Origin: Chloranthus sessilifolius
Lineage: Eukaryota; Streptophyta; Magnoliopsida; Chloranthales; Chloranthaceae
Length of the DNA stretch: 64,000 nucleotides
Direction: 5' to 3'
NCBI GenBank assembly: GCA_021018995.1
Contig: CM037598.1
Span: 69,768,671-69,832,670, forward strand
This document shows positions 13,287 through 51,464 of this stretch, in pieces. Position 1 is the first letter of the stretch, and each line of letters opens with the position of its first letter. A model generated the notes under the pieces. The model searched no databases. It was given only the letters and a program-made list of their open reading frames with translations, and had not been told where the DNA came from. The position numbers and the translations under genes are program-made.

Positions 13287-14627
13287 TGGCAGTGTTGTAC
13301 CGATGCCTTGGGTAGGGGCGAATACTCTCCTAGTTCTTCCTCTATGGGTTGGGTTTGAGGTTAAGTAGTAGCGATCCAGAAAAGTTTGATTTTTTTATAT
13401 ATTTATTTTTTTGGATTTTTCAAATGAAAATTATCTCCCCTATTTTAAATGAATAATGATCTGGTGCCCTAGAAAAATTCCCGTCTCAGGTGGTATATGC
13501 ACCTTTAGTAGGTCCCACGGCGGGATCCGACACACTTCGGAAGGAGCGAAAGGGAACCCTTTCGTTCTATTGAAGGTGAGGGAATCCACGCAAATGACCC
13601 ATCCCCTGGAGCAAATCAATGAGAAGTTGCCTTCTTTTGACTGGGCAGGGGCATATTGGGTGTTATAGAATGCGGGAGGCTACTGTGGGCAGTAATACCG
13701 CTAATCGGGGAATTGGGGTGGTGGATTACGCCTTAGATCGGGTTGCTGTGACCCAGTTTATACTGGGCGTATATGTTAAGCACGCCCGACCAAAAAATGA
13801 CAGATTTAGCTGGGCGTATATATTATATATGCCTGGCAAAAACAACTCTGTCAGTTAATTTTGACAGTGAACAGCAAGCCCAAAAATGGTCTTTGAACTG
13901 GTTTCCTGGGAGGAATGCTCCCGGGGACTGCTGTGTATATTATCGGGTCCCTCCTTTCCGTTTCCTAGGGATACACGGTTGAATTAGGCATCTCGCTCTC
14001 ACCAATGCAAGTTTCTGGCTTTATCGTAATTGGCAACCCGATATACCTCGCAAGCACCTTCTCGAATCTTGGAAGGTGGTTTCTTTCAGATCATCACCAC
14101 TAGGGCTGCCACCTTACTGGGAACTGGGTAAGTTATATCTGTGCCTAAAACTCCCAAAAAACTACCCAAAATATGCAAAAACATATTTGATTATGTCCCC
14201 ACACTGTTGGTTCACTTTTAATTACAGATTTTTAAAGGGGAATGAAATTAAGCCCGTGCCTCAACGGGCCGGCGTTCAATGGTGAGATATGATGACTGAA
14301 ATAAAGAGCGCATGTAGGCCCGCCAAACGGCTAAGGCTCGTAAATGACTGAAATTTAAATGACGTGGAAAGTAGATGCGAGCAAGCTCGCCAAACAGCTA
14401 AGGCGGCTTAATGACAAAATCATAAAAAACTAAAATTTAAAGGCGCAAGTAGGCCCGCCAATCGGCTAAGGCACTTAAAGGACTGAATCGTAAGGGTGAG
14501 TATGTTAGTAAAAACAATAAAAAATAAAGAAAAATAGCAGAAAATTAGAACAAAAAACAGCCATGGTTAGTAGAAAAAAATAAAAATAAAGAGAAAGGCG
14601 AACAAGAGGGGAAGTGCTAGGGTGATG
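13287..14627 (-). other. Element A leader (5' UTR) with palindromes and tandem repeats
   Basis: No gene. Two 21-nt-class palindromes at about 13763-13790 and 13811-13838 (GGGCGTATAT...), matching those in the LTR. Three imperfect repeats of about 65-70 bp at 14308-14485, each carrying a (C)GCCAA(A/T)CGGCTAAGGC-type block. The equivalents in B lie at 31166-31345 and in C at 51143-51325. Confidence 0.7.
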
Positions 14628-14645
14628 TCCCCAACAGAGTCGCCA
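14628..14645 (-). other. Primer-binding site, tRNA-Arg type
   Basis: Minus strand TGGCGACTCTGTTGGGGA, two bases inside the LTR. It resembles the complement of the 3' end of plant tRNA-Arg (acceptor stem GACTC..., ending GAGTCGCCA) with a few mismatches. A tRNA-Arg primer is known for Ogre/Tat elements. The tRNA assignment is from memory. Confidence 0.65.
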
Positions 14646-15378
14646 TCTGTGCGAGCATGGATCCTCTCAAACCCATCGCGGCGATGCACTCGCGATGGAA
14701 TAAAAATGTAGAGTCGCCACCCGGAGCTTTTCGTGACCCGAGAAACCTTTAAATCAATATTTTGAGCACCGAAGTGCTAAATATGACTCTGATTTATCGG
14801 TCTTTGCCAAAGGCTCTAGGGTAGGGGCTTCGGTTATCGATCGGAAAGGGTTTAGGCACCTGATCAACCCGCATGTAGCGGTCTCTATCTATGGCCAAAA
14901 ATAAAAATAAATGGGTGGAGCTTCTCCTTGCCCGAAAGTAATACGGTCCTATCAAGCTTTGAGCCAAACTAAAATTTCGACGGTGTAACGGCTTGAATCC
15001 TTGGACGGAGGAAATACCGAGAAGGTAGAGGAAGAGAGGGGTGAGCCAGAGCTCACGGGCCCTTGTTGTACCGTATGAGACCTTCGCTTCGGCGTGCTTC
15101 TAATGGCTTTAAATGGCTTAAACGGTAGAAGAATAGGTTCTAATGCTAGGATTCGGTAGATAGGAGGTGTGGAATGAAGCTAGGGACTAAGCTTTAACTA
15201 AAAGAGTTGATCTAATGGTTGAAAAGGGTTGCAAAGGATGATCTATGCATGCTGGAATTCTGGTTGAAAATATAAGAAAAGAACTTTCTCTCACTAGGGC
15301 TCTCTCTCTCCTAACTCAAGCTTTCACCCTAATCATTTCAACCTTGATTTTTTCAACCCTTTTGGGAAGAGGGGGGCC

Positions 15379-15392
15379 TCTCTATTTATAGA
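15379..15392 (-). promoter_or_regulatory. TATA box of element A LTR
   Basis: Minus strand CTCTATAAATAGAG, a canonical plant TATA box, about 880 bp from the U3 start. Transcription would run left into R/U5, the leader and gag. Confidence 0.75.
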
Positions 15393-15663
15393 GAAGAGGT
15401 GGGTTAGAGGGTTACTTAAGAGCTAATTGGTTTAGCAATTAGGTAATCCTCCATCTAAGGTTTTCTAGGTTTTTAGGGTCCTAGAGGTTTGGGAAATTGG
15501 TTTCAATGGTGGATGATGGGAGACCATGGGTGACTTAAGGGTTACCAATAAGCTCAAAGGGGGTACAACCAACCTCAAGACACCCACCTTAACAAAGGGG
15601 ATGGTCAAAGGATCAAACCAGATGGAGGAAATTCGAGCATTTAATGACAGATACTGTAGCTAA

Positions 15664-15890
15664 GCTGGGCGTATATATTACATACGCCTAGCTTATGCAC
15701 AATAAAAAAATAAGAAAACCAGGGGGGATCTGACTAGATGGGTGCCCGCGTTGGTGGCAACCTATGCTGGGCATATGTATTATATACGCCCGGCCAAATT
15801 TGGCCCAAAAATGCCAGGCGTATATAATATATACGCCTGACCAATCTGGGGCCAAATTGGCTGGGTGTATGTAATACATACGCCTTAGCA
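15664..15890 (-). repeat. Palindrome cluster in element A U3
   Basis: Four palindromes in ~225 bp of the form GGCGTATATA-A-TATATACGCC (perfect at 15817-15837; variants near 15668, 15777 and 15864). They lie upstream of the TATA box. Two more occur in the leader. The matching places in B and C hold palindromes with a different core. Confidence 0.85.
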
Positions 15891-16284
15891 AAAGTTGTCA
15901 TTTTATGTGAAACTTCAATCGGCCATAACTTTTGAACCACAACTCCAAATTGGGTGATCTTTGGCTCGTTGGAAAGCTGGAGAAGTCCTCTTTCAATGGT
16001 ATGTGGCTCATCCTTAGTAGGGGTCTATATAAAAATTTGTAGCTCTCCTCCCATCAAATGCTCAAAAGGGTTTAAGTCGAGTCTGGGAAGGGATCCTGGG
16101 GTTTAGGGGTGATCTCTAAGGGTTGGGGGAATGGTTCTAATGGATTTTAGGTGATTCCTAAAGGTCTGGATAGATTCCTAAGGGTTCAAGGGTCGAAAGC
16201 ACAGGGGTGCATCTTTGCCGGAGTACAGACTGATCGGACCTTGGGCCGAATTTGGGTGTCTACAGAAACAAAAGTATATGACTA

Positions 16285-18209: not shown

Positions 18210-18214
18210 GTATA
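18210..18214. repeat. Target-site duplication, left of element B
   Basis: gtata, identical to 33129-33133, and abutting the LTR start TGTGCAACC. Confidence 0.85.
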
Positions 18215-18936
18215 TGTGCAACCGTGGGAATCGAGATGATCCCGTCGTGACGATGCACTCTCTAACGAAAAATATAGAGTCGCCACCCGGAGCTTTCGGT
18301 GTTCCGGGATACCTAGTTCATTTTTATGAGCACTGAAGTGCTAAAAATATTACTCTGAATCCGTTCCACACCAAAGGCTCTTGGGTAGGGGCTTCGGTTA
18401 TCGATCGGGAAGGTGTTAGGCACCCGATCAACCCGCTTAACGCGGTCTCTAATAATGGCCAAAAATAAAATGAAGTAAAAGAAAAGAAAATAGTTCCCTC
18501 TTGCCCAAATGGGCCTCCAATCCTATTTGTGTCCCTCCTTTCCTACCAAAAATTCGATAGCGTAACGGCACAAAATGAGAGGGTAGGGAGAGAAAAAGGA
18601 GATAGGAGAAGAAAGGGGAGAGTCGGAGCCCTCGGGCCCTTGTAGCACTGTAGGAGAGCCTTGCATGGCTTGCTTTGATGAGCTCTTGAAGGCTTTGTAT
18701 GATGGAAAGTGGGGTTCTAGCTCTTAAGGCTTGCTAACTAAGAGGTAGAGAGGAAAGGTGAATGGGTAGCATATACCTAAACTAAGGGATCTAAGGTAAA
18801 AAATATCACTCAAAGGAGGTTTTGGAATTCTGAAATTTGTATGAGAAGTGTGCACCAAAGGGAGAAAGATCTTCTCACTTTAAGCTCTTTCTCTCTTGGG
18901 CCAAAATTCTCAACCCTTAAGCAAGAGGGGTGGCTC

Positions 18937-18950
18937 TCTATTTATAGGAA
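18937..18950 (-). promoter_or_regulatory. TATA box, element B left LTR; also the duplication breakpoint
   Basis: TTTATA at 18941-18946 (plus strand) is the sequence at which the tandem duplication begins; the same six bases occur at the junction 37340-37345 and at 60032-60037. Confidence 0.7.
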
Positions 18951-19230
18951 ATGGGTGAATTAGTGAGGGGTTAAAGTCTTAATTGGATTAGCAATTAGGT
19001 AATGGGCAATCTAAGGTTTCCTAGGATTTTTGGAGCCTTGAAATGTGTGGGAAGGTCCTCCAATGGTGGATGATGGGGTGAGGCCTTAAGCCACTTAAAG
19101 GGGTGCAAATAGGCTTCAAAAGGGTGCAACAGAACTAGCTAAACACAGCCCAAAGGTCGAGGTGGTCAACAAGTCAAACCCCAGTCATGAATTTCAGGGC
19201 AAAAACCAACAATTACTGTTCATATGCATA

Positions 19231-19395
19231 GCGCAACTATTAGTTGCGCTAGGCAAATGTATAGTAAAATAGTAATGTATAGTGCCTGGAAGTCAGCTCG
19301 TGAGGATGGGGCCAACTTTTGAATCTGGCACAACTATTAGTTGTGCCAGGATTAAAATAAGGGAAAATTGGCCTGGTGCAACTATTAGTTGCATC
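19231..19395 (-). repeat. U3 palindromes, GGCGCAACTA/TAGTTGCGCC type
   Basis: Three copies at 19231-19249, 19327-19347 and 19375-19395, with arms of 9-10 bp around one central T. They are upstream of the LTR TATA box. Counterparts: 32621-32641 and ~32669-32689 in the right LTR, and 30561-30581 in the leader. Confidence 0.85.
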
Positions 19396-19564
19396 AAGTC
19401 CCTAAGGGGCCCACATGACTTTACATTCATGCCCTCCGGGCTCGGTTTGCCATATCTTTTGACTTATACCTCTGATTGGGGTGATTCTTGGACTGTTCGA
19501 AAGCTGACGATCTCTACTCCTCAATGGTATGAGACTTGATTGCAGTAGAGGGCCATAGCTAGTT

Positions 19565-19608
19565 CCGGCGCACCACTCTTCATCCATAGATGAAGAGTGG
19601 TGCACCGG
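19565..19608. repeat. LTR hairpin private to left LTRs
   Basis: Arms CCGGCGCACCACTCTTCATC and GATGAAGAGTGGTGCACCGG (19 of 20 pair) with the 4-base loop CATA. The same hairpin is in the left LTR of C (37915-37957). Both right LTRs have the 5' arm only, followed by CCTGGTAAGGTT. Confidence 0.9.
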
Positions 19609-19772
19609 AGTAGGTTTCTAAAGGTTTGGGATAGGTTCCTAAGGGATCTAGGGGGATTCCTAAGGGTTTGGGGTGATTCCTAGGGGTTCCATACATGCCA
19701 TCAAAAGCTCAAAATTGCACCTCTCTTGAAAAGTGTTTTGATCGAGCCTTGGGCCAAATTTGGGTGTCTACA

Positions 19773-19792
19773 GATGCCCCTCTTTAGTATCC
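19773..19792 (-). other. Polypurine tract of element B
   Basis: Minus strand GGATACTAAAGAGGGGCATC immediately before the LTR start TGTAGACACCC. Confidence 0.8.
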
Positions 19793-20107
19793 GATCACTA
19801 ATGATCGTATACCAAAGAAAAGAGACATCCGAAGAGGCCCAAGACATTATTGATGGGTCCGCTATATTCAGAACGAACTTCAAACATTGGGTGAGTAATA
19901 TGGTGAGAAAATGAAAGCCCTGGGGCGCCAGGCTAATCATTCGTTTCTCGCGGTAATTGGTTCCCAAGCGCTTAGTGACATTACTGGGCATAACCGAGGT
20001 GGAATGAGTTGCGAAAGCCCAATAGCTGAGAAAAACGTTCGCCTCTCGAGTTGTGAAAGTCCATTAGTTGGAAAAAACATTCACTTCTCGAGATGATTTG
20101 AAGGTGA

Positions 20108-20725
20108 TTGATGTTCGAGATTTATTCTGAATACAACAATTTCGTAAGTAAAGGGGGTGATCGACCCACATTCAAAGATAGGCGCGAAGTAAACATACGC
20201 AAGGCTCCACAGTTTACGTCCAATCCTACGAGACATTTGATGACCTCATTAGATTATTCGAGGGTGCACCTGCTGAAAGCAGGGTTCGTGATCTTTGGGC
20301 GAACCCATCGATCCCAAAGTTTATTTAGCATGACCACCTGAGCGAAGTGAATAGATGCTACAACACATTTTGGGAGTACGTGCCATTTCGAAAACATGCC
20401 TCAACTCAGCATGGCCTAGAGTATCCAATTTTGACTTCCTTGAACAGATCTATCCAAACATTGGGCACCTCCCAAAAGGGGGCATCCAAACCAGGCCTCT
20501 GTTGACAATGATCATAATCATCAATTAACTATGCATAATCCTGCACCCATCAGGGACAATAAGCAACAACAAAGGCGATGGAAGCCCCGACCCGGACCCG
20601 CCTGGGTACAATTTACCTGGGACAAACTACCATCATACAGATACCCAGACGCATGGCGTAAACTTTATAGGGATACCACTGCCCATACAGGTTTTAAGCC
20701 TACAAAAAATAAAAAAGGGAAATGA
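20108..20725 (+). pseudogene. Antisense extra frame of element B (aORF-like)
   Basis: Plus-strand, opposite to gag-pol, between integrase and the 3' LTR. Coding-like blocks include YETFDDLIRLFEGAPAES, VRDLWANPSIPKF, RCYNTFWEYVPFRKHAST, and a basic end (20531-20725) with WKPRPGPAWVQFTWDKLP and a Lys-rich tail. The same blocks are readable in element C (38440-39052). Tat-lineage elements are known to carry extra frames here, some antisense. I do not recognise the protein. Decayed in both copies. Confidence 0.55.
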
Positions 20726-22756
20726 TCCCTTCTGAATGCATGGTTGCACATAGTTTGATTGACACATAATCTCATTCTCAACAGGTTGGTCTCAACCAGC
20801 GATTGACCTTTTCCAATGGAGAATCTGAAGCTTAAAACACTTAAGTTCATACGAATCCAAAACAAAGTGCTCATCGCTCAAGAGATTTAGCAGTGGAGTT
20901 GACTCGATCGAAACATTGACTGTTTGACCGAACTGACATCGTTGCTCCTTCCTTGAAGAAGGATCCAGAATCTAAGGCGTGCCTTAGACTTAGGATGTTA
21001 TTATAGCATAGTAGTGTTACTGATAAAATAAAGACATTTTACCGCATCAGAACATGCATGTGCGTCTCTGCGGGAAAGCACAAATTTATTCTTTTTCTCT
21101 CTTTTTTCCTTTTCTTTTAAAGATTGCTTTTTTTCATTTTTTTTTTTTAGAACAAACATCATCTGGACCTCGAACCCCAGGAGGCACACACCTAGACAAC
21201 GCATATCAAGAGCCCGTGCCTCTGCAGTAGTTTGCGACTAAACTGAAGCCAACGTACTCAAGTTCACCTGACGTCGGTGGTGAGATGTTTTATTTAATTT
21301 GTCCATCGCTGAGAAGTTGCCCGCTTCGAGGCTTTGGACCGTGTGATGTTCCTGCACATTCTCGAGAAAACGTCAATCCCTTTTTTGTTTATACATATAA
21401 AGAAAATGCATTCTAAACAATAGAAAAAAAAGTAGATTTCTACCTACACTTTTTCATTTTCAAGATATTTTTTAGATTTTTGTTTTTGGAGATTTTTTGT
21501 TATTTTTCTTCATTTTTGAGATTGAAATATGATGTTGGAAATATGTACATGAAAATGAGAATAAATATATACACATTTTTTAGTGTTTGGATTTTTCTTG
21601 ATTTTTAGTTTTTAGTTTTTCTTCTTTTTTTTATTTTTAATGCCTTGATAGTCAGACGGAGTAATGGGTCCCATTTTTAGTATAGTCGAACTCTTTCATG
21701 CAGTCGAACCTGAGTGAGTTTCTAGATTTTACCAAGGCCGCAATGTTGATCCGTTTGGATTGAGTTAAACCTTTCTCCTTGCCTCGGGTCATACAATTGA
21801 CGGTGCAGGTTTCACAAAGACAATTCTGGTCTGGACCCGATTCGAACTAGCATGAGCGGCCCAGTCGGACAAGAGGGTATAGGAAGAGTAACAAAAGGGT
21901 TCCTCAAACATCAATCTTCTCAATCAGTCCAAACCTTTCTTCTTTTCTTTTATTTTTTTTTATTTATCTCCTCCCTTTTTTTACCCGTGGCGCCCTTTCG
22001 GGTTTTTACCACGTCCATGGGTTTAGCTCTCTTACCCCAAGCGCCCTTTCGGGTTTTCACCTAGTCCACGCAAGCCCGCTGTTTTTACCCGTAATGCCCT
22101 TTAAGGTTTTCACTACGTCCATCTTGCTTCGAGCCTGTATTTTTATTTTATTCTTTATTCTTTTTATTTTTTAGAGCCACGACATAGACATCGATTTCGT
22201 CATAGCCGGCTGGATGGGGTTCTGGTGTCGTCTCATGACTCAGCTCATGTTGACTTAACAGATATTATGACTGCTTGCGAACCTACAAAGAGGGCTTCCT
22301 TCAGGGTGTAGTTTGGCCATGGGTTAGGTTAGGATTTAAAGGTATGCTAGGCTAAAAGGGTTTCCTGGATACGACTTCAATTTTCTCAACATACAGCATA
22401 CTTTCTTCCTTGGGAGTTTTACTGTACATTCCCCGTGATTCTTTTACATTTTTGGTCCTTTTTGCTTCATTTCAGGCAATCTCTTTTTGAGGTTTTGCTT
22501 TTTTGATTTTTTTTTGGATTTTGATAGTAACTCTACTTCATCTTTTCTCTCTTTTTTTTTTTGGTATATGTACACGTATATTTTTTTGGGGGAATGGGTT
22601 TATTGAAAGAAAGGCCTAGGCTCAAATGGGGTAGCAAAGGATATCATCATTTTTAGGAATAGTTTTGGGCTACTGTGCTTGGAATGATGGCCTCTTTTGG
22701 GTGGTCTTTAAGCACTCACGTATCTGTTTCGCCAACACTTACCTTGTCGTGATGGA
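20726..22756 (-). other. Element B 3' non-coding region
   Basis: No gene. Pyrimidine-rich tracts on the plus strand (21090-21150, 21430-21640). At 21985-22130 there are three imperfect ~60-bp repeats around GCGCCCTTTCGGGTTTTCAC. Near 22565-22590 there is a T-run, then TATGTACACGTATATTTTTT. The equivalent in C is at 39053-40967. Confidence 0.6.
21985..22130. repeat. ~60-bp tandem repeats (GCCCTTTCGGGTTTTCAC)
   Basis: Three units, each with a (G/A)(C/T)GCCCTTT(C/A)(G/A)GGTTTT core separated by variable linkers ending near GTCCA. Element C has the same array at 40190-40325. Confidence 0.75.
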
Positions 22757-23823
22757 CTAAGAGTAGAACCGTTGGACGTATCCAGCATTGATGGGCTCAG
22801 GAAGATGATCTCCGTCTATGGTGGCGAGGCGGATGGCGTATCCCGTCAGCATTTCTCGGACGACATATGGTCCTTCCCAGTTTGGTTTAAACTTTCCTCT
22901 CGGATCGGTATGTAGGGATGGGAAGATCTTCTTCAGCACAGTGTCTCCTACCTTTAGATCTCGACCGCGGACACGTTTATTGTAAGTGCGTGCGATTCGC
23001 CCCTGGTAAACTTGAGTGTGACACAAGGCTAGGAGTCTCTTCTCGTCCAATAAGTTTAATTGTTCAAAACGGGATCTCTTTTTTTTGCTTCGGGTAAGTC
23101 TGATTCTATGAGGATTCGGAGTGAGGGTACTTCAACCTCTACCGAGACGACGACCTTGGTTCCATACACAAGGGAGAATGGTGTTTCCCCTGTAGCGGTA
23201 CGGATCGACGTTCGGTAGGCCCACTAAGCAAATGGCAGCATTTCACTCCAATCTCGATAAGTGATGACCATTTTCTCAAGGATGCGGATGACTATTTTGT
23301 TCGCGGCTTCCACGGCTCCATTAGTTTGAGGCCGATAAGGGGATGAGCGTTGGTGCTTGATCTTGTATTGCTCGCAGAAGTCTCGGATGCGTTTATTCGC
23401 AAAGTTTGTGTCGTTGTCCGTGATGATATCTTTGGGTACTCCAAATCAGCACACAATATTGTTCTTGAGAAACTTCTCAACGTGACTGGCCGTGATGTTG
23501 GCATATGACGCTGCTTCTACCCACTTGGTGAAGTACTCAATGGCGACCAGGATGAACCGATGTCTGTTTGATGCTTTTGGATTAATCATTCCAATAGCGT
23601 CAAGGCCTCAGGTATAAAATGGCCAAGGAGTGGTCATGCAGTGAAGATCAATGGCAGGAGTGTGTATCAGACTGGAGTGTTCTTGACACTTGTAGCATTT
23701 TTTAACATGTTTGCAATAATCTGATTCCATGGTGGTCCAAAAGTATCCTTGCCGTAGGATTTTCTTAGCGAGCATGTGACCACTGACGTGGGCTCCACAT
23801 ACTCCCTCATGGATTTCTTTCAT
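22757..23823 (-). pseudogene. Element B integrase
   Basis: Minus strand. The N-terminal zinc-binding region is at 23608-23823 (HEGVCGAHVSGHMLAKKIL ... CKHVKKCYKCQEH, the H2C2 pattern), then the catalytic-core region, and the C-terminal part at 22757-23050 (RVRGRDLKVGDTVLKKIF, KFKPNWEGPYVVREML), the usual GPY/F module. No chromodomain follows, as expected for Tat rather than chromoviruses. Family role: inserts element DNA into the chromosome. Decayed. Confidence 0.88.
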
Positions 23824-23937
23824 AACATTGACCGTTTCACTTTTAGTGAGGCACCTAAGTAAGACGTTATTGTATGATCACTTGTAGAGACATTCCTCGC
23901 AAATGACGTAACCTATCGCTAAACGATGAATGGTTCG

Positions 23938-24635
23938 TCAGTCTGTCTTGGATGTACCCTCTGGGAAAGTTACGGTTTTGAGGATATTCTTGATATCTGA
24001 GAACCAAGGTGGCTCATCATCAGGCTTTGTAGGTTCCTCAATCTGGAGGCAGAAGGCCGGCTTATTCCTTTCCTCGATCCTGATCAGCTTCATCTCAACA
24101 CCATAGGGGATTTCAATCATTGACGCCAAAGTTGCTAATGCGTCGACAAAGCGATTCCTTATCCGGGGGACGTATGAGAAAGTCACATCTTGGAAGCAAG
24201 CTATTAGATCCTCGAGGTGTTCATGATAGGGAATCAGTTTCTCATCTTTCATCTTCCAGTCACCATTCGTCTGGCATATGATAAACTGTGAATCGCTAAA
24301 TACTCGAAGGTGAGTTACATTCAGATCGAGAGCCGCCTGCAGACCGGTGGCGCAAGCTTCGTACTCAGCCATATTGTTAGTGCAAGGGAAGTTGAGCTTG
24401 ATAGAGACCGGTACGTGGGATCCTTTTGGTGAAATCAGGATGGCGCCAACTCCTTGGCCCTCGACATTTGCTGCCCCGTCAAAATGCATTACCCATGATT
24501 CTTCTGCTTCTTCTGTATCGTCTTCTGTCATGAACAGAATGTCCTCATCGGGGAACTTAGTTCTCTCATTATCAGGTAAAGGATTGTCGGCAAGATGATC
24601 AGTAAGTGCCTGCCCCTTGATAATAAAAGGTGCCA
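23938..24635 (-). pseudogene. Element B second (archaeal-type) RNase H
   Basis: Minus-strand frame with all four acidic RNase H positions visible: MHFDGAANVEGQGVGAILIS (first Asp), NNMAEYEACATGLQAAL (Glu), LRVFSDSQFIICQTNG (second Asp), RNRFVDALATLAS (last Asp). It follows the RT-linked RNase H, giving the dual RNase H layout that defines the Tat lineage of plant Ty3/gypsy elements. Confidence 0.9.
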
Positions 24636-26162: not shown

Positions 26163-26740
26163 TTTGATTCAGGCATCCTTTTGTGGGACATTTTCTGGAA
26201 TTTTAAATGACAATATTTTTAAACTTTGGATTTTTTCAATGTTTTTGGAATTTTGTATTTTTTTCATGTTTTTGAGACTTTGAATTTTTTCCTTGCTTTT
26301 GAGATTTTTGTTTTCTTCGGAGATGGACCCTTGGCAAGGCGGGTTGCTATATACACAAGATATTGTTTGCCAAGGGCTTCTCTCACTTTTTATAGGTTGT
26401 TTTTTTTTAGGAAACGGGTGCCAAATGTTAGGCCACTCCCCGCTTCCAGGGTTTGGGGCAAAGATGCCCAGTTGCGTACCTAAGGGGCCGCTTCTTTACC
26501 TGTTGGGGTGGAGGGTGCTGATTGATATGGCTCATTGGAGTCAGCCTCCATCATATTGATCCCCATTTCATTTGAGATCATGTCCTCAAATGATAACTTA
26601 GTTTTATGGTGATTCACCACAGGGGGGGTTTGTTCAGGTACCGATCGTCGTTCCTCAAAAAGGGACAACGCGGCCAAATCAATCTCCAAGCTGGGAAGGG
26701 AGATTTGGGGATTGGTGGGATGGATTGGGGCTGTGGTTTT

Positions 26741-27135
26741 TTATGGGGTCAAATGGGTTACCCCATTTTGATCCATTTTTATGACCCCTGTGCTGACAAA
26801 GGAATCCTTGATGTGCGGCCTAGGGCAAGGTTTCTCTTCTATGTTGATTCCTCGAGCTCTTTGGCCTCTTGGACCTCTTCTTCTTTGGGCTTGTATCCTA
26901 ACCCAAATCGGACCTTCTGCCCCTTGGTGACAACTGGCTCTTTTCTTCCTTGTAATCTGGGTCCCAGACCTCGGCCTTTCTGGTAGCCCCACTTTTGGAG
27001 CATGGCTACTGCTGCTACCATGCCACCTCCGGTTCTTGGAATGATGTCCTCGATGGGCTCCAGGGGTATTGCCGACACCTCGTACTCGAAACTGTGGAGG
27101 TTGACGTCCTCAGCGGTGTGTGGTATATTCAGCAT
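26741..27135 (-). pseudogene. Element B polyprotein: G-patch segment
   Basis: Minus-strand frame (26839-27135) with MVAAVAMLQKWGYQKGRGLG, PRLQGRKEPV and FGLGYKPKEEEVQEAKE: a G-patch-like module in the same place (between protease and RT) as in A and C. The preceding residues (DVNLHSFEYEVSAIPLEP) are a conserved lead-in. Confidence 0.78.
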
Positions 27136-27231
27136 ATTAGGTTTTTCAATGCTATTGGCGGCCTTTTCTTTCTCACTGTGCCCCTCTCCGATGATTGTGA
27201 TAATCTTATGTCCAGATGTAAATTTGAGTTT

Positions 27232-31506: not shown

Positions 31507-31508
31507 TC

Positions 31509-40967: not shown

Positions 40968-42027
40968 CTATCGGACGTATCCAGCGTTGATGGGCTCAAG
41001 AAGATTATCTCCGTCCATGGTGGCGAGGCGGATGGCGTATCCCGGCAGCACTTCTCGGATGACGTATGGTCCTTCCCAATTTGGTTTAAACTTTCCTCTC
41101 GGATTGGTATGGAGGCATGGGAAGATCTTCTTCAGCACAGTGTCTCCTACCTTTAGATCTCGACCGCAAACACGTTTATTGTAAGTGCGTGCGATTCGCC
41201 CCTGGTAAACTTGAGTGTGACACAAGGCTAGGAGTCTCTTCTCATCCAATAAGTTTAATTGTTCAAAGTGGGATCTCTCTTTTTCTGCTTCGGGTAAGCC
41301 TGATTCTATGAGGATTTAGAGTGAGGGTACTTCAACCTCTACCGGGAGGACGGCCTCGGCTCTATACACAAGGGAGAATGGTGTTGCACCTGTAGCGGTA
41401 CTGATCGACATTCGGTAGGCCCACAAAGTAAATGGCTGCATTTTGCTCCAATCTCGATAAGTGACGATCATTTTCTCAAGGATGCGGATGACTGTTTTAT
41501 TCGCGGCTTCCATGGCTCCATTAGTTTGAGGCCGATAAGGGGATGAGCGACCGTGCTTGATCTTGTATTACTCGTAGAAGTCTCGGATGTGCTTATTAGC
41601 AAAGTTTGTGCCGTTGTCCGTGATGATATCTTTGGGTACTCCAAATCGGCACACAATATTGTTCTTGAGAAACTTCTCAACGTGACTGGCCGTGATGTTG
41701 GCATATGACGTCGCTTCTACCCACCCACTTGGTGAAGTACTCAATGGCGACGAGGATAAATCGATATCCGTTTGATGCTTTTGGATTAATCATTCCGACA
41801 ACGTCAAGGCCCCAGGTAGCAAATGGCCAAGGAGTGGTCATGCAGTGAAGATCAATGGCAGGAGCATGTATCAGACTGTAGTGTTCTTGACACTTGTAGC
41901 ATTTTTGAACATGTTTGCAATAATCTGATTCCATGGTGGTCCAAAAGTATCCCTGCCGTAGGATTTTCTTAGCGAGCATGTGACCGCTGACGTGGGCTCC
42001 ACATACTCCCTCATGGATTTCTTTCAT
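40968..42027 (-). pseudogene. Element C integrase
   Basis: Minus strand. Zinc-binding N-terminus at 41677-42027 (HEGVCGAHVSGHMLAKKIL, CKHVQKCYKCQEH) running on into the core (WPFATWGLDVVGMINPKAS with the first core Asp, and GYRFILVAIEYFTKWV). More core at 41316-41513 (KMQPFTLWAYRMSISTATGA). C-terminal GPY/F-type module at 40968-41249 (KPNWEGPYVIREVLPGYA). Decayed. Confidence 0.88.
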
Positions 42028-42245
42028 AATATTGACCGCTCACTTTCAGTGAGGCACCTAAGTAAGACATTATTGAATGATCGCTTGTAGAGACATTCCC
42101 CGCAAATGACGTTACTTGCCGCTAAACGTTGAATGGTTCGTCAGTCTTTCTTGGATGTACCCTCTAGGAAAGTTAGGGTCTCGAGGAAATTCTTGATATC
42201 TAAGAACCAAGGTGGCTCATCATCAGGCTTTGTAGGTTCCTCAAT

Positions 42246-42833
42246 CTAGAGGCAGAAGGCCGGCTCAGTCCTTTGCTCGATCCTGATCAACTTCATCTCA
42301 ACACCATAGGGGATTTCAATCATTGACGCCAAAGTTCTTAATGCGTTGGCAAAGTGATTCCTTATCCGGGGAATGTATGAGAAAGTCACATCTTGGAAGC
42401 AAGTTATCAGATCCTCGAGGTGCTCATGATAGGAAATCAGTTTCTCGTCTTTCATCTTCCAGTCACCATTCGTCTGGCATATGATTAACTGTGAATCGCC
42501 AAATACTCGAAGGTGAGTTACATTTAGATCGAGAGCTGCCTACAGACCATCGACGCAAGCTTCGTACTCAGCCATATTGTTAGTGTAAGGGAAGTTGAGC
42601 TTGATAGAGGCCAGTACGTGGGATCCTTTCGGTGAAATCAAGATGGCGCCAACTCCTTGGCCCCCGACATTTGCTGCCCCGTCAAAATGCATTACCCATG
42701 ATTCTTCTGCTTCTTCTGTATCGTCTTCTATCATGAACAGAATGTCCTCATTGTGGAACTCAGTTCTCAAAGGCTCATAATCAGGTAAAGGATTGTCGGC
42801 AAGATGATCAGCAAGTGCCGACCCCTTGATCAA
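42246..42833 (-). pseudogene. Element C second (archaeal-type) RNase H
   Basis: Minus strand: MHFDGAANVGGQGVGAILIS and NNMAEYEACVDGL, then DVTFSYIPRIRNHFANAL. The same module as 23938-24635. Decayed. Confidence 0.85.
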
Positions 42834-42959
42834 CTTCTAAGTGACGTACGTGATGTCGAATTTAGATAATAAAAGCTTCCATGATGCAGTCCGCCTAGTG
42901 AGAGCTGACTTCTCGAACAGGTATTTTAACGGATCCATTCAGGCTAAAACCAGAATAGC

Positions 42960-44579
42960 TTAAGATAGCAAGTAGTGGCGGAGCCTTTGATCCCATAAAA
43001 GTGCTAGGCATGCTTTCTCCAGATGAGAGTAGCGCGTTTCATAATTAGTAAACTTCTTGCTCAGGTAGTAAATAGCCTGCTCTCTTCTTCCCGTTTCATT
43101 GTGCTGCCCCAAGACACATCCCATCGAAACTTCCGTCATGGAGAGATACATCAAGAGTGGTCTCCCTGGCTTAGGTGGTACCAAAACAGGTGGATTAAGG
43201 AAGTAGCTTTTGATTTTTTTGAACGCTGCCTGACAATCATCGTTCCATTCAACAGGCGAATTCTTCCTTAGTAACTTGAAGATTGGCATGCAGATTGGAG
43301 TTAGTTGTGCAATGAACCGGCTGATATACTGTATTCTGCCCAGAAACCCTCTAACCTCTTTCTCGATTGATGGTGGTGGCATTTCAGTGATGGCTTTGAC
43401 TTTGATTGGGTCGACCTCAATCCCCCTCCTGCTGACGATGAACCCTAGAAGTTTCCCTGACATAGCACCAAATGCGCACTTCTGTGGATTCAGTCGTAGT
43501 CAATACTTCCTCAGCCTTTCAAACAGCTACTGAAGGTTTACCAGATGGTCGCTTCGCTCCAGTGACTTGGTTATCATGTCGTCGACATACACTTCAATCT
43601 CTCAATGCATCAAGTCATGAAATAGTGCAGTCATAGCTCTCTGGTATGTTGCACCGACATTCTTCAGCCCGAATGGCATGACTCGATAGCAAAAGGTTCC
43701 CTACGGGGTAATGAACACTGTCTTCTCGTGATCAACCTCAGCCATTTTGATCTGATTGTATCCTAAGAATCCATCCATAAAAGAAAGCATCCCGTGCTTA
43801 GCTGTGTTATCGACCAAGATGTCGATGTGTGGTAATGGGAAATCATCCTTTGGGCTCGCTCTGTTCAAATTGCGAAAATCGATGCACATGCAGACCTTTC
43901 CATCTTTCTTTGGCACAGGTACGATATTGGCTAGCCATTGCGGGTATTTGGATACCATTAGAAACCTTGCATCATACTGCTTGATGACCTCGTCTTTGAC
44001 TTTCAATATCCACTCGGATCGGAGACGTCTCAACTTCTACTTGACTGGCTTCATAACAGGGTAGAGGGGCAACTCATGCTCGACCAAATCAGTATCTAGA
44101 TCAGGCATGTCCTCGTACGACCAGGCAAAAACGTCTTGGTATGACCGAAGGAAGTCGATCATGCTTTTTCTTTCCTCAGGAGACAGTGATGTTCCGATTT
44201 TGGTTATCCTGGGAACCTCCTCAGTTCCTAGATTGACGTCTTTGGTCTCTTCGAAAATGGTGGTAGGGCCATACTCAAAGTCGGCAAATCGATCAAGGAG
44301 CTCATTGGGGAGCTCTTCGAAGGGGACATCCTCATCCATACTCATGATCCCTACCTCTTCTTGTATTTCTACAGGGAAGGGGTCGATTTCACGTGGGACA
44401 GGCATTTTGATTAAGGCATCCTTTTGTGGGACATTTTCTGGAATTTTAAATGACAATATTTTTAAACTTTGGATTTTTTCAATGTTTTTGGAATTTTGTA
44501 TTTTTTTCATGTTTTGAGATTTTGTATTTTTTCCATGTTTTTGAGATTTTTGTTTTCTTCGGAGATGGACCCTTGGCAA
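42960..44579 (-). pseudogene. Element C reverse transcriptase and RNase H
   Basis: Minus strand. The N-terminal linker at 44037-44579 (PREIDPFPVEIQEEVGIMS, DRFADFEYGPTTIFEE); RT blocks at 43701-44033 (VPVPKKDGKVCMCIDFRNLN, PHIDILVDNTAKHGMLSFMD); connection and RT-linked RNase H at 42960-43463 (GIEVDPIKVKAITEMPPPS, LLMYLSMTEVSMGCVLGQ). Decayed. Confidence 0.9.
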
Positions 44580-45062: not shown

Positions 45063-45406
45063 CTAGGGTGAGGTTTCTCTTCTATGTTGATTCCTCAAGC
45101 TCTTGCAGCTGCAACGACCCTGGCTTTCTCTTTGGCCTCTTGGACCTCTTCTTCTGTGGGCTTGTATCCTAACCCGAATCGGGCCTTCTGCCCTTTGGCG
45201 ACAACTGGCTCTTTTCTTCCTTGTAATCTGGGTCCCAAACTTCGGCCTTTCTGGTAGCCCCACTTTTGGAGCATGGCTACTGTTGCTACCATGCCACCTC
45301 CGTTTCTTAAAATGAATCCCTCGATGGGCTTCGGGAGTATTGCCGACACCTCGTACTCGAAACTATGGAGATCGACGTCCTCAGCGATGTGTGGTATATT
45401 CAGCAT
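45063..45406 (-). pseudogene. Element C polyprotein: G-patch segment
   Basis: Minus strand (45095-45406): MVATVAMLQKWGYQKGRSLG, PRLQGRKEPV, FGLGYKPTEEEVQEAKEKAR. Same position as in A and B. Confidence 0.77.
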
Positions 45407-46086
45407 ATTGGGTTTTTCAATGCTATTGGCGGCCTTTTATTTCTCACTGTGCCCCTCTCCGATGATGTGATAATCTTATGTCCAGATATAAATTTGAGTT
45501 TCTTATGCAATGTGGAAGGTATGGCTCCGACCTCGTGCAACCACGGGCGCCCCAATAAAAGATTAAATGAGGATTTGATGTCCATTACCTGAAATAGTAT
45601 GGAGAAGGTCATTGGCCCAATTAAAAGCTCAAGGTCAACTTCTCCCATTATCTCTCTTCGTGTGTTATCAAAACCTCGAGCACTGGTTCTTGTGGGTCTC
45701 AGCATGCACGGATCTACCCCAATCTTGGTGGCGATTCTTAATGGGCATATATTCAATGCAGACCCGTTATAGATTAGAACTAAGGGGATAGTCATATTTC
45801 TGAACTCAACGGTTATATTCAAAGATTTTGGGTGACTTTCTCCTTCCTCAGGTAAATCGACATCAGAAAATGAAATGGTATTTGGAGCCATCACTTGACC
45901 AATTATCTGCCCGACTTCATCCGGGCTAACTTGAAGTGATACATGTGTATTTTTTAACGCCCCCATTAATGCTTGGAAATGGAGTGGGGACGTCATCAAT
46001 AGATCCCATACAGTGATATGGGCAAGCATTCTTCTCAGCTGAGTCTCCAGTATATGTTCTCGACTCATCTTCTCGAAGGGGTTCAC
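45400..46086 (-). pseudogene. Element C polyprotein: aspartic protease region
   Basis: 228-residue minus-strand frame: FEKMSREHILETQLRRMLAH, the retropepsin-type core IPLVLIYNGSALNICPLRIA, and FNLLLGRPWLHEVGAIPST. It overlaps the G-patch frame slightly in another frame. Decayed. Confidence 0.83.
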
Positions 46087-49000
46087 CGCGTTGTCTTTCT
46101 TTCCTTCGGGTTGGGCCTATGCTACTGCTAGTGCTTCTAGCTGCTTTGATATCCTCCCTGACTTGGTAATAAAATCTACTACCCCTTCTCTGCTGCTGCT
46201 GCTGCTGTCGACATTGATATCTATTTGTTCGTAGCTTAGCGGGACCTGATGAGGATCATATGTGAGTCCCGAGAGCTGGAAAGTTATCACTGCCGGTTCT
46301 TAAGGTACTTGTACTGTCGACTCAGGAGGTGTGGGCAATACTTGATTCACCTCGATGGTAGCGGGTTGGGTGGAAAGATTGGGCCAAATGGGGGTGGTGA
46401 AGCTTGAGGGTGGTGGCATTGGAGGGAAGGAGGTAAAAGTAGGCCATTGATAACTGGTGGGTGCTGGCGGCAGATGGGGAGTCTGATGGGCCGTTAGGTA
46501 ATTGACCGGGGTGGTGGAGTTTGTCGGTGGTTGAACTAGAGGTGATTGGGTGGGCGCAGGCCATTAATAACTAATGGGTGCAAGTGTTGGATTGGGGGCC
46601 TAGTGGCTTAAAGGGTACTCGATGGGGGTTGTGGTGTATGGTGGTAGTTGAAATGGGGCGGGCGTAGGCCATTGATAATTGGCGGGTGTGGGTGCAGGAT
46701 TGGGGGCCTGAGGGCTTATAGGGTAATTGATGGGGGTTGTGGTGTATGGTTGGTATGCATTGATATTTACATAATTGACGGGTGTGGTGGATGGAACGTA
46801 TGCCCGGAGTTCCAAGGGTTCAAATTACGGGGTTGGGTTGGGGAAATATTCAGTCAAATTTAAGGGTTCAATTACCCCAACATTCCTTTCTTCATCATTC
46901 CTCGGAAATGGTGCCACATAATTCTCTCGATCACTAATATAATCGGATGGGTCAAATTCAAACTCCTCATCTTCTATCTTTTCGACGGTGGGTCTGGGAC
47001 CTGATCCTCTGGTGGGATGTCAGGGTAGTGGCACTTGATGAATATTAGCATGCTAAGAGGGTGCAGGGGGAATGATTTTTTCGACATCGATCAAATCCTG
47101 GATGGCGTGCTTCAATGGGAAGCAGCGATTAGTAGGGTGACCCAGACCCTGATGAAAATTACAGTAGGTATTTGGGTCATAGTTCCTTGGGATCGGGTGA
47201 GGAGGTTATGGTTGGCTGATAGCCACTAATCCCTCTTCTAGAAATAGGGGCAAAAGTACACTCAATGATTGCCCCAGAGGTGTGAAGACTCGGTCATAGC
47301 GGGCTCTCCTCCGTTTCGGGGTCATTTGCATTCCTTGCCCATTCCCCATTCTTTGCATCTGCTCAGGCCTAACGGATGCTGGTGGGGTAGCCTGAAATTG
47401 AAACGGGGTTGTATTGTTATTGGGCCGAGTATTGACTATGTTCTGGACATCGCCCCCTGTTCTCTTCTCGTTCCTTTGCTCTGAAAATCTTCTAACCCCA
47501 CTGGGTCCACTTGGCATATTCTTATTCAGGCGCCCCTCCCTGATGGCGTCCTCGCATCGGTTAGCATTTCTCACTAGATCAGCAAAGCTGGTCTGCTAGT
47601 GATATACCAAAAAGTCTGAAATCACTGGCAGAGTGTTCTTTGAAATCATCTCTATCTATTCATCAGCAGGTATTTTGTTCCTAACCTGAGCTACCAATGC
47701 TCTCCATCGCCCCAAGTAGTCGCTGAAGGTCTCGTTCTGGTTCTGCTTTAAACGGGCCAAGTCAGATTTATGCGGCTCAATGTCTATATTGTAGACATAC
47801 TATTCTTGAAAGAGGTGCATCAAGTCCCTCCACATTTTCATCATAGACGGTTCTAAAGATGTGAACCATCTCAAAGTCGGACCGGTCAGACTCTTTTGAA
47901 AGACTTTTATTAGTAGTCTTTCGTCCTCCCCGTATTGGCACATGGACCCATAGTAGGACTTCTGGTGTGCAATAGGATTACCAGTGCCATTATATTTATC
48001 GAAGGTTGGCATTTTAAATTTGGGGGGCAGGGGGACCTCAGCGAACAGACATAAGTCTGTGAAGTCCATGTCATGGATTTCAGCAACACCCATTTTCATC
48101 AGCTGCTTTTGTATTTAGTCTAACTATTCTTTCAGTTGTTCAGACTCTTTTGATACGGGGTCACTTTTTCAGCCGTCAGTTGGACTTCACTCTGGGCCAC
48201 CAGGGGGTGGGCAATTATGGGAGGAGGGTTAAGGCCGGTCAAAGCCCCAGCATAGGCCCTGCTATTCCTAATTTCATCCTCTTCATACTGCTGATCGGCA
48301 TAATTTACAGTAAGGGCGGGATTCTCCTGTTGTTGTTGCATGGGTTGGATGGGAATGACATGAGTGGGGGTTGGGTGAGCCTATTGGGGGTGAGGAAAGG
48401 TTTGTTGGGTGATGGGAATTTGGTTTTGAGGTGGGGCCTGATAGCGCCATTGGGTATGGGGGAAGGTTTGGAGATGGCCTTGGGGTGTGGGGCCATGGGA
48501 GAATTGGGTTTGAGGTATGGCATGGGTTTGACTCGGCTGTGAAGGTTGGGTTAAATGTTGGGGGTATTGTGGATGGTGTGAGTGTGGGGTTTGGGTTTGA
48601 GCCATGAACCCTTGGCCATTTTGGGCCACAAGCCATTGATAGGTTTGGGCCATGGACCCTTGGTGGGTGTGGGCCAGTGGGCCTAGGTAGGTTTGGACCA
48701 AGGGCCCTTGATGGGTCTGGGCCATGGGCCCTTGGTGGGTTTGGGCTATGGGCCCTAGGTGGGTCTAGCCCAATGGGCCTTGATGGGTCTAGCCCAACGG
48801 GTCTTGATGAGTCTGAGCCATGGGCCCTTGATGGGTCTGGCCCATTAGGCCTTGATGGGTCTGGGACATGGGCCCTTGATGGGTCTGTGCCATGGGCCCT
48901 TGGTGGGTCTGGCTCAATGTGCCTTGATGGGTCTGGGTCATGGGCCCTTGATAGGTCTGGCTGAGTGGGCCTTGATGGGTCTGAGCCATGGGCCCTTGGT

Positions 49001-49989
49001 GGGTCTGGGCCATGGGCCCTTAGTGGGTTTGGGCCATGGACCCTGGGTAGGTCTAGCTCAATGGGCCTTGATGGGTCTGAGCCATGGGCCCTTGGTGGGT
49101 CTGGCAATGGGCCCAGGGTAGGTTTGGGTGGTGGGGTATTAGGCCATGTGCCCCTGGGATATATGAGAAAAGGGGGTTTGGGCCAATGGGTCTTGGGGTA
49201 AGTGGGTAATGGGGGTTTGAGTGGTGTGGATTATGGGGGGTTGATGGGGATCATGGGGGAGTGAGGCATGGAGATTGGCTAGGGTATGGGATGGGTTCAT
49301 GGGGTGTAGAGGAGAGGGGGTGTTTTGAGAAGCCTTCCACATGGAATAGGCTTGGAACATCTCATGGTCATGGAGGAAGGGTTGGATGGAGATGGGGGAT
49401 TTAAGGGGTGATGGGGCATAGATGGGATGCAGGTGGTGGAAAAATTGGGCATGGCCCCGGTATAATCGGGCATGGCCACGGTAGGTGGGGGGGTATGGGG
49501 TGGATGAGGGGATGTATTGGGTATGTTTTGGGATGATGGGGGACATGATAAGGAGAGATGAGGAAAGTTAGGCATGGCCCCGATAAAAATGGGCATGACT
49601 AGCATGGATGGGGGATTTTGCGGGGGGACGGATAGGGCGGAAGTGGTGTATGTGAATGTGGGTGGATCGGGTCTATAGGGGGATGATGGGAATTGGGGCA
49701 TGGATGTGGATTGGGAAAATGGGTTTGGGTTTTGTATGAATGTGGATGGGAGATGAGTTGGACTTGGCATGGGCATGGGTTGGGCAAAAGATGGAGAATG
49801 GGGGGTTGGATTTTGGATATTTTGGGGGGTAGTGGATGGGAAATTGGGGGCACCAAATGGGCCGGTAACGGTAAAGGGGGGTTGGGTGAGGGGGATGGCG
49901 GAAAAGACTTCTCCCGAATGGGAGTGGGTTGGAGAATGTGGTGGGGATGAGTCGGGATCGGCGTAAGCCAGGTCCATTATCCACGACAT
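46087..49989 (-). pseudogene. Element C gag
   Basis: Minus strand, start near 49989 (MSWIMDLAYADPDSSPPHSP). Order: a Pro-rich N-terminal half with FTVTGPFGAPNFPST; 8-residue AQTHQGPM-type repeats (48600-49110); the gag core at 47800-48099 (KFKMPTFDKYNGTGNPIAHQ, GEDERLLIKVFQKSLTGPTL, RWFTSLEPSMMKMWRDL), matching the retrotransposon gag family; a basic linker (47206-47574); a zinc-knuckle-like CNFHQGLGHPTNRC-type segment near 47130; an acidic EDEEFEFDPSDYI block; and a Pro/Ala/Thr-rich tail. Family role: particle shell and RNA binding. Decayed. Confidence 0.87.
48600..49110 (-). repeat. 24-bp tandem repeats in element C gag
   Basis: About 21 copies of a 24-bp unit (plus strand GGGCCCTTGATGGGTCTGGC + CCAT), coding for the octapeptide AQTHQGPM in the gag frame and open in other frames too. 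Elements A and B have different repeat lengths or counts at this place. Confidence 0.85.
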
Positions 49990-51464
49990 GTCTCGGTAGC
50001 GGGTCAGGTAAGGGTGCCTTGGATAAGGCCCAAAAATCCTCGTCCTTCCCCTATGGGTCGGCGGAGGGCAAGATGATGCCGTTGTGCCGGCACCACAAAC
50101 TATATATATTTTTTGGGTTTTGAGTATATATATTTTTTTGAATTTTATGAAAAAGTTTTAAAAAATAAAAGTTTCGAGGCCTTGGATTTCCCTTCTCGGG
50201 TGGTTCTCTTACCTTAATTCGAGACTCGCAGTGACGATTTCGATGCACTTTGGAAGAATCGAAGGAAAACCTTCGATCTATTGAAGGCACAGAAATCGAG
50301 GCAAACAACCCGATCCCCCGGAATGAGCCAAAAAGAAGTTGCCCTCTTTTGACTGGCGGGGGCATATTGGGTGTCAGAGATGGCAGGGCCTAAACAAGGT
50401 ACTAAGTACACTGATCGGGGGCCTCGGGTGGTGAAGAAGGCCACAGATTCGGGCTGGATTGGTGTAAAACAAACCTAGCGCAACTAATACATGTGCCCAA
50501 GTTGCAGGGGACCCTTTTTACACTGGCGCAACTATTAGTTGCGCCAAGGTAAAATTTGGGATTTTAAAGCTGGCGCAACTATTAGTTGCGCCAGTTATAA
50601 ATTCCAGTGTTTTTACACTGGCGCAACTAATACTTGCGCCAGGCAAAAATTGGTCCTCCAGAACAGATGATAGCAGCCGCTAATGCCTGAAATGAGTCTC
50701 TTTTTTGGTTTTTTGTGGAAGCTAGGCTTCCGGGAACTGAGCTATTTTTTGGTGATCGATTCTCTCCTCACCGCACCTAAAGGGCTTGAGTCCAGTATAA
50801 CTCGCTAGCGTGCTCCCTAAGGGTTCTAAGCTTTGAAATAGGAACCCACCCGATATACCTCCGGCGCGAGCGCCTTCTCAGATACTAGGTGGGCTGGGAC
50901 TTTTCTGGATCATCACCACTAGGGGCTGCCGCCATACTAAGACCCGGGGGTTTGTATGTTTGCCTAATCCCAACCCTTTTTAAAATCTACCCCGTAAAAA
51001 CAGATTAATTAATCTCCCTAACTTAGTTCAATTTAAATTTTTTCAGAGCTTTTCTCTATTTTTGGAAGTTTTCTTTAGTTCAAAGACCGGGGGTGATTAT
51101 CTCGTGCCGCCACTACGGGTCAGCGTCCACTGATGGAATATGAGCGCACAAGTAGGCCCGCCAATCGGCTTAGGCACTTTAAATGACGAAAATTTAAAGG
51201 AATTGAAAGACAAAGCTCAAGTAGGCCCGCCAATCGGCTAAGGCACTAAAATAACGGAAAAGTAAGGAATTTTAAAAGACAATGCGCATGTAGGTTCGCC
51301 AATAGGCTAAGGCTCGTAAATGACGAAAAAGTAGGGGTACGTAAAACGACTTAATCGGAGGGGTGAGTAAAAAAACCATAAAAATAAACTAAAAAAATAG
51401 TAATAACATGTTAGTAAAAATAAAAAATAACAAGGCCGATTGTGCAACCGTGGGAATCGCCACC
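49990..51464 (-). other. Element C leader
   Basis: No gene. Two perfect 21-nt palindromes at 50525-50545 and 50572-50592 with further half-conserved ones nearby (50470-50640). Three ~75-bp repeats at 51143-51325 on the AGTAGGCCCGCCAATCGGCT theme. Confidence 0.75.

Follow-up and report, generated by a model that had tools for sequence, protein, structure and literature searches.

The DNA analyzed here is a 64,000-nt stretch of Chloranthus sessilifolius (CM037598.1, 69,768,671–69,832,670), hereafter the window, which carries three minus-strand long terminal repeat (LTR) elements, A, B, and C, in whose U3 promoter regions and transcribed leaders 21-nt palindromes recur. The 5′ LTRs of the last two elements are denoted B5 and C5, and their 3′ LTRs B3 and C3; element A overruns the left edge of the window, and its 3′ LTR and integrase region lie outside. 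The LTRs, with the target-site duplication (TSD) and the primer-binding site (PBS) where relevant, and the palindrome arrays are as follows:

14648–16264, minus strand: 5′ LTR of A, 1617 bp, TGTAGACACCC...GCACA, its ends read directly from the sequence
Start 15391, minus strand: TATA box of A, within the 5′ LTR
Beside the 5′ LTR of A, minus strand: PBS context, TGGCGACTCTGTTGGGGAC, read directly
31509–33128, minus strand: 5′ LTR of B, 1620 bp, TSD TATAC at 33129–33133
18215–19772, minus strand: 3′ LTR of B, 1558 bp, TSD TATAC at 18210–18214
51465–53067, minus strand: 5′ LTR of C, 1603 bp, TATAC upstream as in B
37341–38102, minus strand: 3′ LTR of C, truncated at the TATA box
15664–15890, minus strand: A U3 array, sites 15864–15884, 15817–15837 (perfect), 15770–15790, and 15668–15688, spacings 47, 47, and 102
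13763–13838, minus strand: A leader array, sites 13813–13833 (one broken pair) and 13766–13786 (four broken pairs), 47 nt apart
32524–32727, minus strand: B 5′ U3 array, sites 32669–32689, 32621–32641, and 32524–32544, remnant 32707–32727
30513–30661, minus strand: B leader array, sites 30641–30661, 30561–30581, and 30513–30533, half site 30593–30613
19230–19395, minus strand: B 3′ U3 palindromes, sites 19375–19395, 19327–19347, and 19230–19250, spacings 48 and 97
52480–52683, minus strand: C 5′ U3 array, sites 52663–52683, 52625–52645, 52577–52597, and 52480–52500, spacings 38, 48, and 97
50477–50640, minus strand: C leader array, sites 50620–50640, 50572–50592 (perfect), 50525–50545 (perfect), and 50477–50497 (chimeric left half), spacings 48, 47, and 48
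37725–37745 and 37628–37648, minus strand: C 3′ U3 palindromes, in the truncated 3′ LTR

On the element strand, the family word reads GGCG-TATATA-W-TATATA-CGCC in A and GGCG-CAACTA-A-TAGTTG-CGCC in B/C, both words having been picked by us from the observed sites. Searched for on either strand with up to three mismatches allowed, the B/C word has 27 matches at 15 places, all within B or C, and the A word nine matches at five places, all within A, for a chance expectation of 0.00 matches on average for either word (100 shuffles each). Leaving out two B sites that survive only as remnants (30593 and 32707), 25 sites were graded, six in A and 19 in B/C: five are perfect, no more than one pair is broken in 16, and the poor ones are 13766 and 50477 (four broken pairs each), 52480 and 32524 (five each), and 52577, 30641, and 30513 (three each). 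The palindromes are confirmed as real and beyond chance. Against Rfam, every family stayed below its gathering score, and the tRNA gene search came back empty.

A previous reading of this DNA from its sequence only had pointed to 21-nt palindromes at 50525–50545, 50572–50592, and 15817–15837, all of which are borne out as perfect, and to another at 32621–32641, which is present with one pair broken. The places that it named are real, if partly misassigned: 50525 and 50572 belong, together with 50620, to the C leader and 32621 to the B 5′ U3, and its A places correspond to the U3 (15664–15890) and the leader (13763–13838) of that element. It also had the 21-nt length, the ends, and the dual placement in U3 and leader kept between families, and in this it was right.

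U3 regions contain up to four sites and leaders two to four. Counted from the LTR start, the U3 sites begin at 381, 428, 475, and 577 nt in A and at 385, 423, 471, and 568 nt in C; counted from the end of the LTR, the leader sites begin at 815 and 862 nt in A and at 825, 873, 920, and 968 nt in C. Overall, the U3 sites occupy LTR offsets 358–585, that is, ∼300–500 bp upstream of the TATA box (at 826–888 in the four LTRs that retain it), and the leader sites lie ∼815–976 nt past the 5′ LTR. Since the whole LTRs of A and B/C are 60–61% identical and their U3 offsets nearly equal, the place and number of the U3 sites were kept as their surroundings drifted; the number of leader sites was not kept (two in A, four in C). 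Among the 19 neighboring spacings (all LTRs and leaders, remnants counted), 11 measure 47–48 nt, five 97–102, two 38, and one 32, and in both families the gap of 97–102 precedes the last U3 site. A helical constraint behind the 47-nt spacing is weakened as an explanation, because tandem duplication yields the same spacing.

The two family words differ at three of the ten arm positions (5, 7, and 8), and the opposite arm carries the matching difference each time. At position 5, all six A sites have T and all 19 B/C sites have C; at position 7, five of the six have T and 17 of the 19 have A. On the other arm, position 15 shows A throughout the six A sites and T throughout the 19 of B/C, and at position 17 all six A sites show A and 15 of the 19 B/C sites G. 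Over 24 aligned sites, arm positions 9 and 10 never vary and position 6 hardly does, and conservation drops within a few bases beyond the 21-mer. The core had previously been described as replaced with symmetry retained; its difference is indeed compensated, although “replaced” overstates a change at three of ten arm positions. Over 20 arm positions, the mean distance from U3 to leader within an element is 3.4 in A and 3.6 in B/C, and the cross-family means are 8.1 from U3 to U3, 7.6 from leader to leader, and 6.3 from the A U3 to the B/C leader. Covariation was scored on 24 aligned sites forming 23 distinct rows (one identical copy and the two remnants left out): double-changed cells number 18 against 7.3 in shuffles (0/500 reach 18), and the covariation score is 0.275 against 0.162 (0/500), a signal that mostly reflects the single split between A and B/C. 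Were the arms to drift independently, with an assumed 15–25% change per lineage, a formula gives a rough probability of 2e-3 to 2e-5 for all ten pairs to be kept in both words.

How many independent cases these sites represent depends on the relationship of B to C. Four successive blocks match between 18941–37345 and 37340–60037 at 88.8–93.0% identity, flanks included, in a tandem arrangement with a unit of ∼18 kb; the second copy is longer, 56523–59212 having no counterpart in the first. As B and C share both the TSD TATAC and the duplicated flanks, they derive from one insertion that was later duplicated segmentally, which rules them out as independent witnesses and leaves two independent cases in all, A and B/C. 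An altered fourth U3 site is common to B5 and C5, and a hairpin, TCTTCATCCATAGATGAAGA (19577–19596 and 37927–37946), of which the B and C 5′ LTRs keep one arm only, is common to B3 and C3, a pattern to be expected had the LTRs diverged before this duplication. A chimeric leader site is older than the duplication, as it is found in both B and C; its left half, CATGTA, is one letter off the A variant TATGTA.

Regarding the lineage of the elements, the polymerase regions of B and C gave Pfam matches, including reverse transcriptase (RT):

23938–26168, minus strand: B pol, with RT at 25359–26168, RNase H (RT_RNaseH_2) at 24636–25085, and a second RNase H, RVT_3, at 23938–24801
41677–44036, minus strand: C pol, with RT at 43701–44036 (below the curated cut-off), RNase H at 42960–43499, and integrase zinc-binding (H2C2) at 41677–42039

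RT and RNase H precede integrase in C, which is the Ty3 gene order; no integrase match was obtained in the B pieces tested with Pfam. The second RNase H of B (RVT_3, E 4.4e-20) comes after RT_RNaseH_2 and was seen in B only, none being found in the C pieces tested with Pfam, and A yielded RT and G-patch matches. Two RNase H domains, the second one archaeal-type, are described as a mark of plant Tat elements in the part of PMC5348765 consulted. A, B, and C can be classed as Tat-like LTR elements of Ty3 order, the second RNase H of B being a putative archaeal-type one by its domain match. A G-patch domain lies upstream of RT in all three (Pfam; B 26839–27231, C 45095–45436, A 1715–2146), and G-patch is listed among the non-canonical domains of plant Gypsy elements in the passages seen of PMC9289625. 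In C, the PBS region (51441–51470) is scrambled, with an LTR-end-like stretch repeated there, and a 24-bp repeat in ∼20 copies occupies the leader-proximal open reading frame (ORF) region (48632–49114), with ∼4 copies in B (29046–29135). Seven leader-proximal ORFs matched nothing in Pfam or NCBIfam, where not every ORF was run against both libraries and no VANC-specific search was made.

The present copies are decaying. In a rate comparison whose LTR ends deviated from the final coordinates by between a few and fourteen bases, palindrome columns changed faster than other U3 columns in all pairs of LTRs: 15/63 versus 72/753 for B3–B5, 10/42 versus 66/712 for C3–C5, 15/63 versus 74/733 for B3–C5, 7/42 versus 69/713 for B5–C3, 6/42 versus 50/705 for B3–C3, and, with a slight excess, 7/81 versus 59/784 for B5–C5. 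Ongoing selection on the present copies is rejected on these 6/6 comparisons, and, the copies being in decay, the clean sites reflect the active ancestor. Across the 19 B/C sites, 30 of the 40 arm changes from the family word fall in the outer five arm positions, which hold CpG.

The reading that we weigh first, if tentatively and at somewhat less than an even chance, is that these palindromes may be dyad-symmetric cis-regulatory DNA arrays, placed at the promoter in U3 and again in the leader that Tat-type elements transcribe. It is put first because of the promoter-side placement, the two-fold symmetry, the lack of strand preference, the single main core per family, and the existence of two published kinds of transposable element (TE) that look alike in these respects. 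A putative two-fold symmetric factor, dimeric or repeat-binding, would read both half-sites, and both arms would then have to change together. The arrays could grow and stay alike within an element through tandem, inverted, or U3–leader block copying during replication, and a change of reader or of subfamily would make the sites turn over together, leaving one main core per family. Of the three roles proposed in the sequence-only reading, paired regulator sites fit best in position, symmetry, and lack of strand preference, a hairpin source of small RNAs is possible given the strong composite foldbacks described below, and a kissing loop fits poorly with predicted loops of 3 nt.

The first of these TE kinds is the Sirevirus lineage. 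According to the passages available from PMC2829016, the RM boxes of Sireviruses are palindromic and sit in the upper LTR, ahead of the TATA box; elements that bear ENV have another cluster in front of that gene, and 12/13 elements show a CGG-CCG signature. Here, too, several palindromes lie upstream of the TATA box in the upper LTR half, a noncoding internal region has its own cluster (restricted in Sireviruses to ENV-bearing elements), other letters vary around a shared signature, and each element has multiple copies. However, Sireviruses belong to Ty1/copia, when the domain order here is RT, RNase H, integrase, with RT preceding integrase in C; the second cluster lies here in the leader after the PBS rather than before ENV; the ends are GGCG-CGCC rather than CGG-CCG, on 21 nt with 10-bp arms; and each array has fewer copies (two to four). 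Against at least eight copies per element in Sireviruses, C has eight sites in one LTR plus the leader, several of them imperfect, and A has six with its 3′ LTR outside the window. The recurrent 47–48-nt spacing and the composite foldback are features of the present arrays that go unmentioned in those same Sirevirus passages (PMC2829016). On the best reading, the palindromic repeats published for Sireviruses would have a counterpart in these Ty3/Tat arrays.

The second kind is the VANDAL DNA transposons, whose VANC targets are described, in the portions seen of PMC5735166 and PMC10398659, as motif arrays in several noncoding regions that differ between related TE families and are linked to tandem-repeat formation. 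The likeness lies in a short motif that recurs in several noncoding regions, alike within a family and different between families (two families here), and in this tie to tandem repeats. Unlike the LTR elements, VANDALs are DNA transposons, and VANC motifs are arrayed in one orientation, with words beginning in “palindrom” absent from the main text of PMC5735166. It is conceivable, though we consider it quite improbable, that the palindromes form a family-specific symmetric address, repeated in promoter and leader, for a dimeric factor that co-evolves with it and might, like VANC, be encoded by the TE, in which case the core switch would insulate families from each other's activator, silencer, or anti-silencer.

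Several observations weigh against a regulatory role. The comparison rests on two independent elements or families only. Cores had been expected to match within an element, which holds for most diagnostic letters (positions 5 and 15) and breaks down at position 8, variable within both families (A, three A, two G, and one T; B/C, 15 C and four G). In addition, two of the four B/C leader sites, the first and the fourth, are asymmetric, with CAAGTA and CATGTA as their left halves. Covariation is not strong by two of the measures: pairs changed on both sides number 6 versus 4.1 in shuffles (29/500) and further pair types 13 versus 12.2 (197/500). A compensation test on 12 of the 19 B/C sites, the seven with lost or asymmetric arms being left out, found seven arm changes in the B 3′ LTR, all C-to-T or G-to-A, which include three compensated pair changes; a null weighted by mutational hot spots puts this at 0.0025, for one of six sets and with weights that include these same changes. 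This compensation could stem either from quasi-palindrome correction or from methylated cytosines that took double hits, and, since it arose after insertion, symmetry can apparently be kept without function or selection. Finally, some spacers between sites are related. Read in direct orientation, the A leader spacer resembles both short A U3 spacers (14/3000 and 31/3000 before any correction for the 30 comparisons made, under which this similarity would not clearly hold), and the second C leader spacer, out of three, is similar to that of the B/C U3 when inverted (5, 6, and 0 of 5000 for B3, B5, and C5). With leader and U3 spacers related within an element, the core match may partly reflect block copying, and the case that matching cores mean functional matching is weakened; this is the main result against a pairing requirement. 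As these alignments suggest, block transfer between leader and U3 may have occurred inside each lineage, and that alone would suffice for matching cores.

A first alternative is that the functional unit is RNA: the outer palindromes and the spacers would pair, with the central palindrome as cap, into composite hairpins of 146–148 nt serving processing, packaging, or stability, or diced into small RNAs. We regard this as doubtful, though a serious contender. Two such foldbacks stand out:

15755–15900, no strand assigned: composite foldback of the A U3, three palindromes and complementary spacers, self-inverse at 79%
50509–50656, no strand assigned: composite foldback of the C leader, three palindromes

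Both triplets are symmetric about a perfect central palindrome, with spacers pairing too. The minimum free energy (MFE) is −83.6 kcal/mol sense (z −10.5) and −88.8 antisense (z −12.9) for the A U3, and −87.6 sense (z −13.7) and −86.3 antisense (z −12.5) for the C leader, the best of 200 sense shuffles reaching −54.1 and −48.7, respectively; across all ten folded stretches, z does not rise above −3.6 on either strand. When palindromes are fixed and spacers shuffled, the observed energy is reached in 0/500 cases in the A U3 and 0/500 in the C leader, and the C 5′ U3 triplet also beats its spacer shuffles (2/500). In maize, small RNAs are reported to be in excess over the palindrome-rich parts of Sirevirus LTRs (passages of PMC10760457 and PMC5311732), which would be consistent with such hairpins.

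However, the strongest hairpin lies in the U3 of A and in the leader of C, that is, differently placed in the two families. The energy gained from the spacers, 23 kcal/mol in the A U3 and 12 in the C leader, is smaller in the C 5′ U3 (8), and the next C leader triplet does not beat its shuffles (70/500). The A leader has two sites only, and a duplex test on spacers by themselves is strong in A (1/2000) and fails in the C leader (222/2000). Moreover, the foldbacks are about equal on both strands, as expected of a DNA-level feature. In an ungapped scan of the whole window, paired positions out of 73 number 47 at the A center, 46 in the B leader, and 43 in the C leader, for maxima of 36–40 in ten block shuffles and of up to 60 in neighboring 21-bp arrays of another element. 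What the two families most clearly share is the single 21-nt site and its position.

A second alternative, which we deem unlikely, is that the blocks are by-products of mutation, with template switching, snap-back copying, and quasi-palindrome correction creating, symmetrizing, and spreading them without function. The shared leader and U3 spacers (the one of A, one of three in C), the inverse similarity of spacers around a central perfect palindrome, the three compensated pairs of the silent B 3′ LTR, and the 47-nt tandem periodicity would all be in line with it. On the other hand, the four-site U3 layout is common to A, C 5′, and B 5′ (one site there being a remnant) despite ∼39% LTR divergence, conservation falls off close to the 21-mer, and the eight altered pairs of the other five site sets include no compensated one. 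Across families, the long third U3 spacers of A and C align above shuffles (1/3000), the short U3 spacers align weakly in direct orientation (27–86 of 3000), and the leader spacers of A and C show no significant similarity in six comparisons (best 167/3000).

The least probable alternative is RNA dimerization or 5′–3′ closure, in which palindromes at both ends of the genomic RNA would pair in trans, or leader with U3, so that cores would have to match within an element and be free to drift between families; we rank it weakest because palindromes that fold locally leave loops of 3 nt. The palindromes are self-complementary and occur in the leader and the 3′ U3, both part of the genomic RNA, which recalls the palindromes in the 5′ RNA region of other reverse-transcribing elements, namely the retroviral dimer initiation site and Ty1 PAL: in the passages seen, retroviral dimers use palindromes (PMC5874298), Ty1 dimers are suggested to be palindrome-based, and Ty1 RNA is closed by CYC5–CYC3 pairing (PMC4974528). 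In contrast to the retroviral site, several full-length palindromes are present here, also in U3, and the self-complementary stretch is not predicted to be exposed in the apical loop. Single palindromes fold locally in the U3 of A, B3, and C5 and in the C leader with a predicted 3-nt apical loop, when HIV-1 exposes a 6-nt palindromic loop and HTLV-I, with its single-A apical loop, is an exception among retroviral dimer sites, as described in PMC5874298; in the A leader, B leader, B5 U3, and C3 U3, the MFE structure pairs other stretches instead. Furthermore, U3 sites near a DNA promoter would require another reason, and B/C leader sites 1 and 4 are asymmetric.

Other palindromes occur in the window. 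Tandem arrays of a different unit with a 21-bp period, of CCGCTATCC / GGATAGCGG type, lie at 33685–33797, 53619–53807, and 62534–62708, with further units near 35323 and 55345; in the same surroundings are found an ORF at 33839–34792 with DUF1985 and a sub-threshold plant mobile domain, a Ulp1 protease (59189–59542), and a SWIM zinc finger (60110–60490). The host of these arrays is probably Mutator-like, and would thereby be an element that carries a palindrome array of its own. Within A, direct repeats at 3511–5041 and 8147–9697, 96% identical, delimit what is probably a nested LTR element (3511–9697), whose largest ORF (7083–8270) had no Pfam match. Each repeat contains a palindrome, GGAACTTCTAGAAGTTCC (4375 and 9011), which presumably resembles a heat-shock element.

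Our literature searches, covering titles and abstract beginnings of open-licence papers, found no report of such palindrome arrays in Tat elements among the matches listed. On palindromes in plant LTR elements, the passages retrieved concern satellite palindromes, general remarks, and insertion-site palindromes, and short sub-words of the motif brought up no retrotransposon paper by title among the matches listed. Both cores had zero matches in viral contigs, and scans with RT proteins gave no confirmed relative in viral or prokaryote genome contigs; as the collections scanned were viral and prokaryotic, this absence says nothing about plants. Beyond what had been noted earlier on this DNA, the analysis adds the duplicate status of B and C, the recurrent 47–48-nt spacing, the composite foldbacks, and the related leader and U3 spacers.

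Even if the explanation were to be an ordinary one, these arrays are a caution that block copying can produce matching palindromes in LTR and leader. From the perspective of LTR element biology, Sirevirus work has put forward a double role for palindromic LTR arrays, as control regions and as hot spots of small RNAs, and the Ty3/Tat arrays, similarly placed and with their compensated core difference between families, would be a convergent second case.

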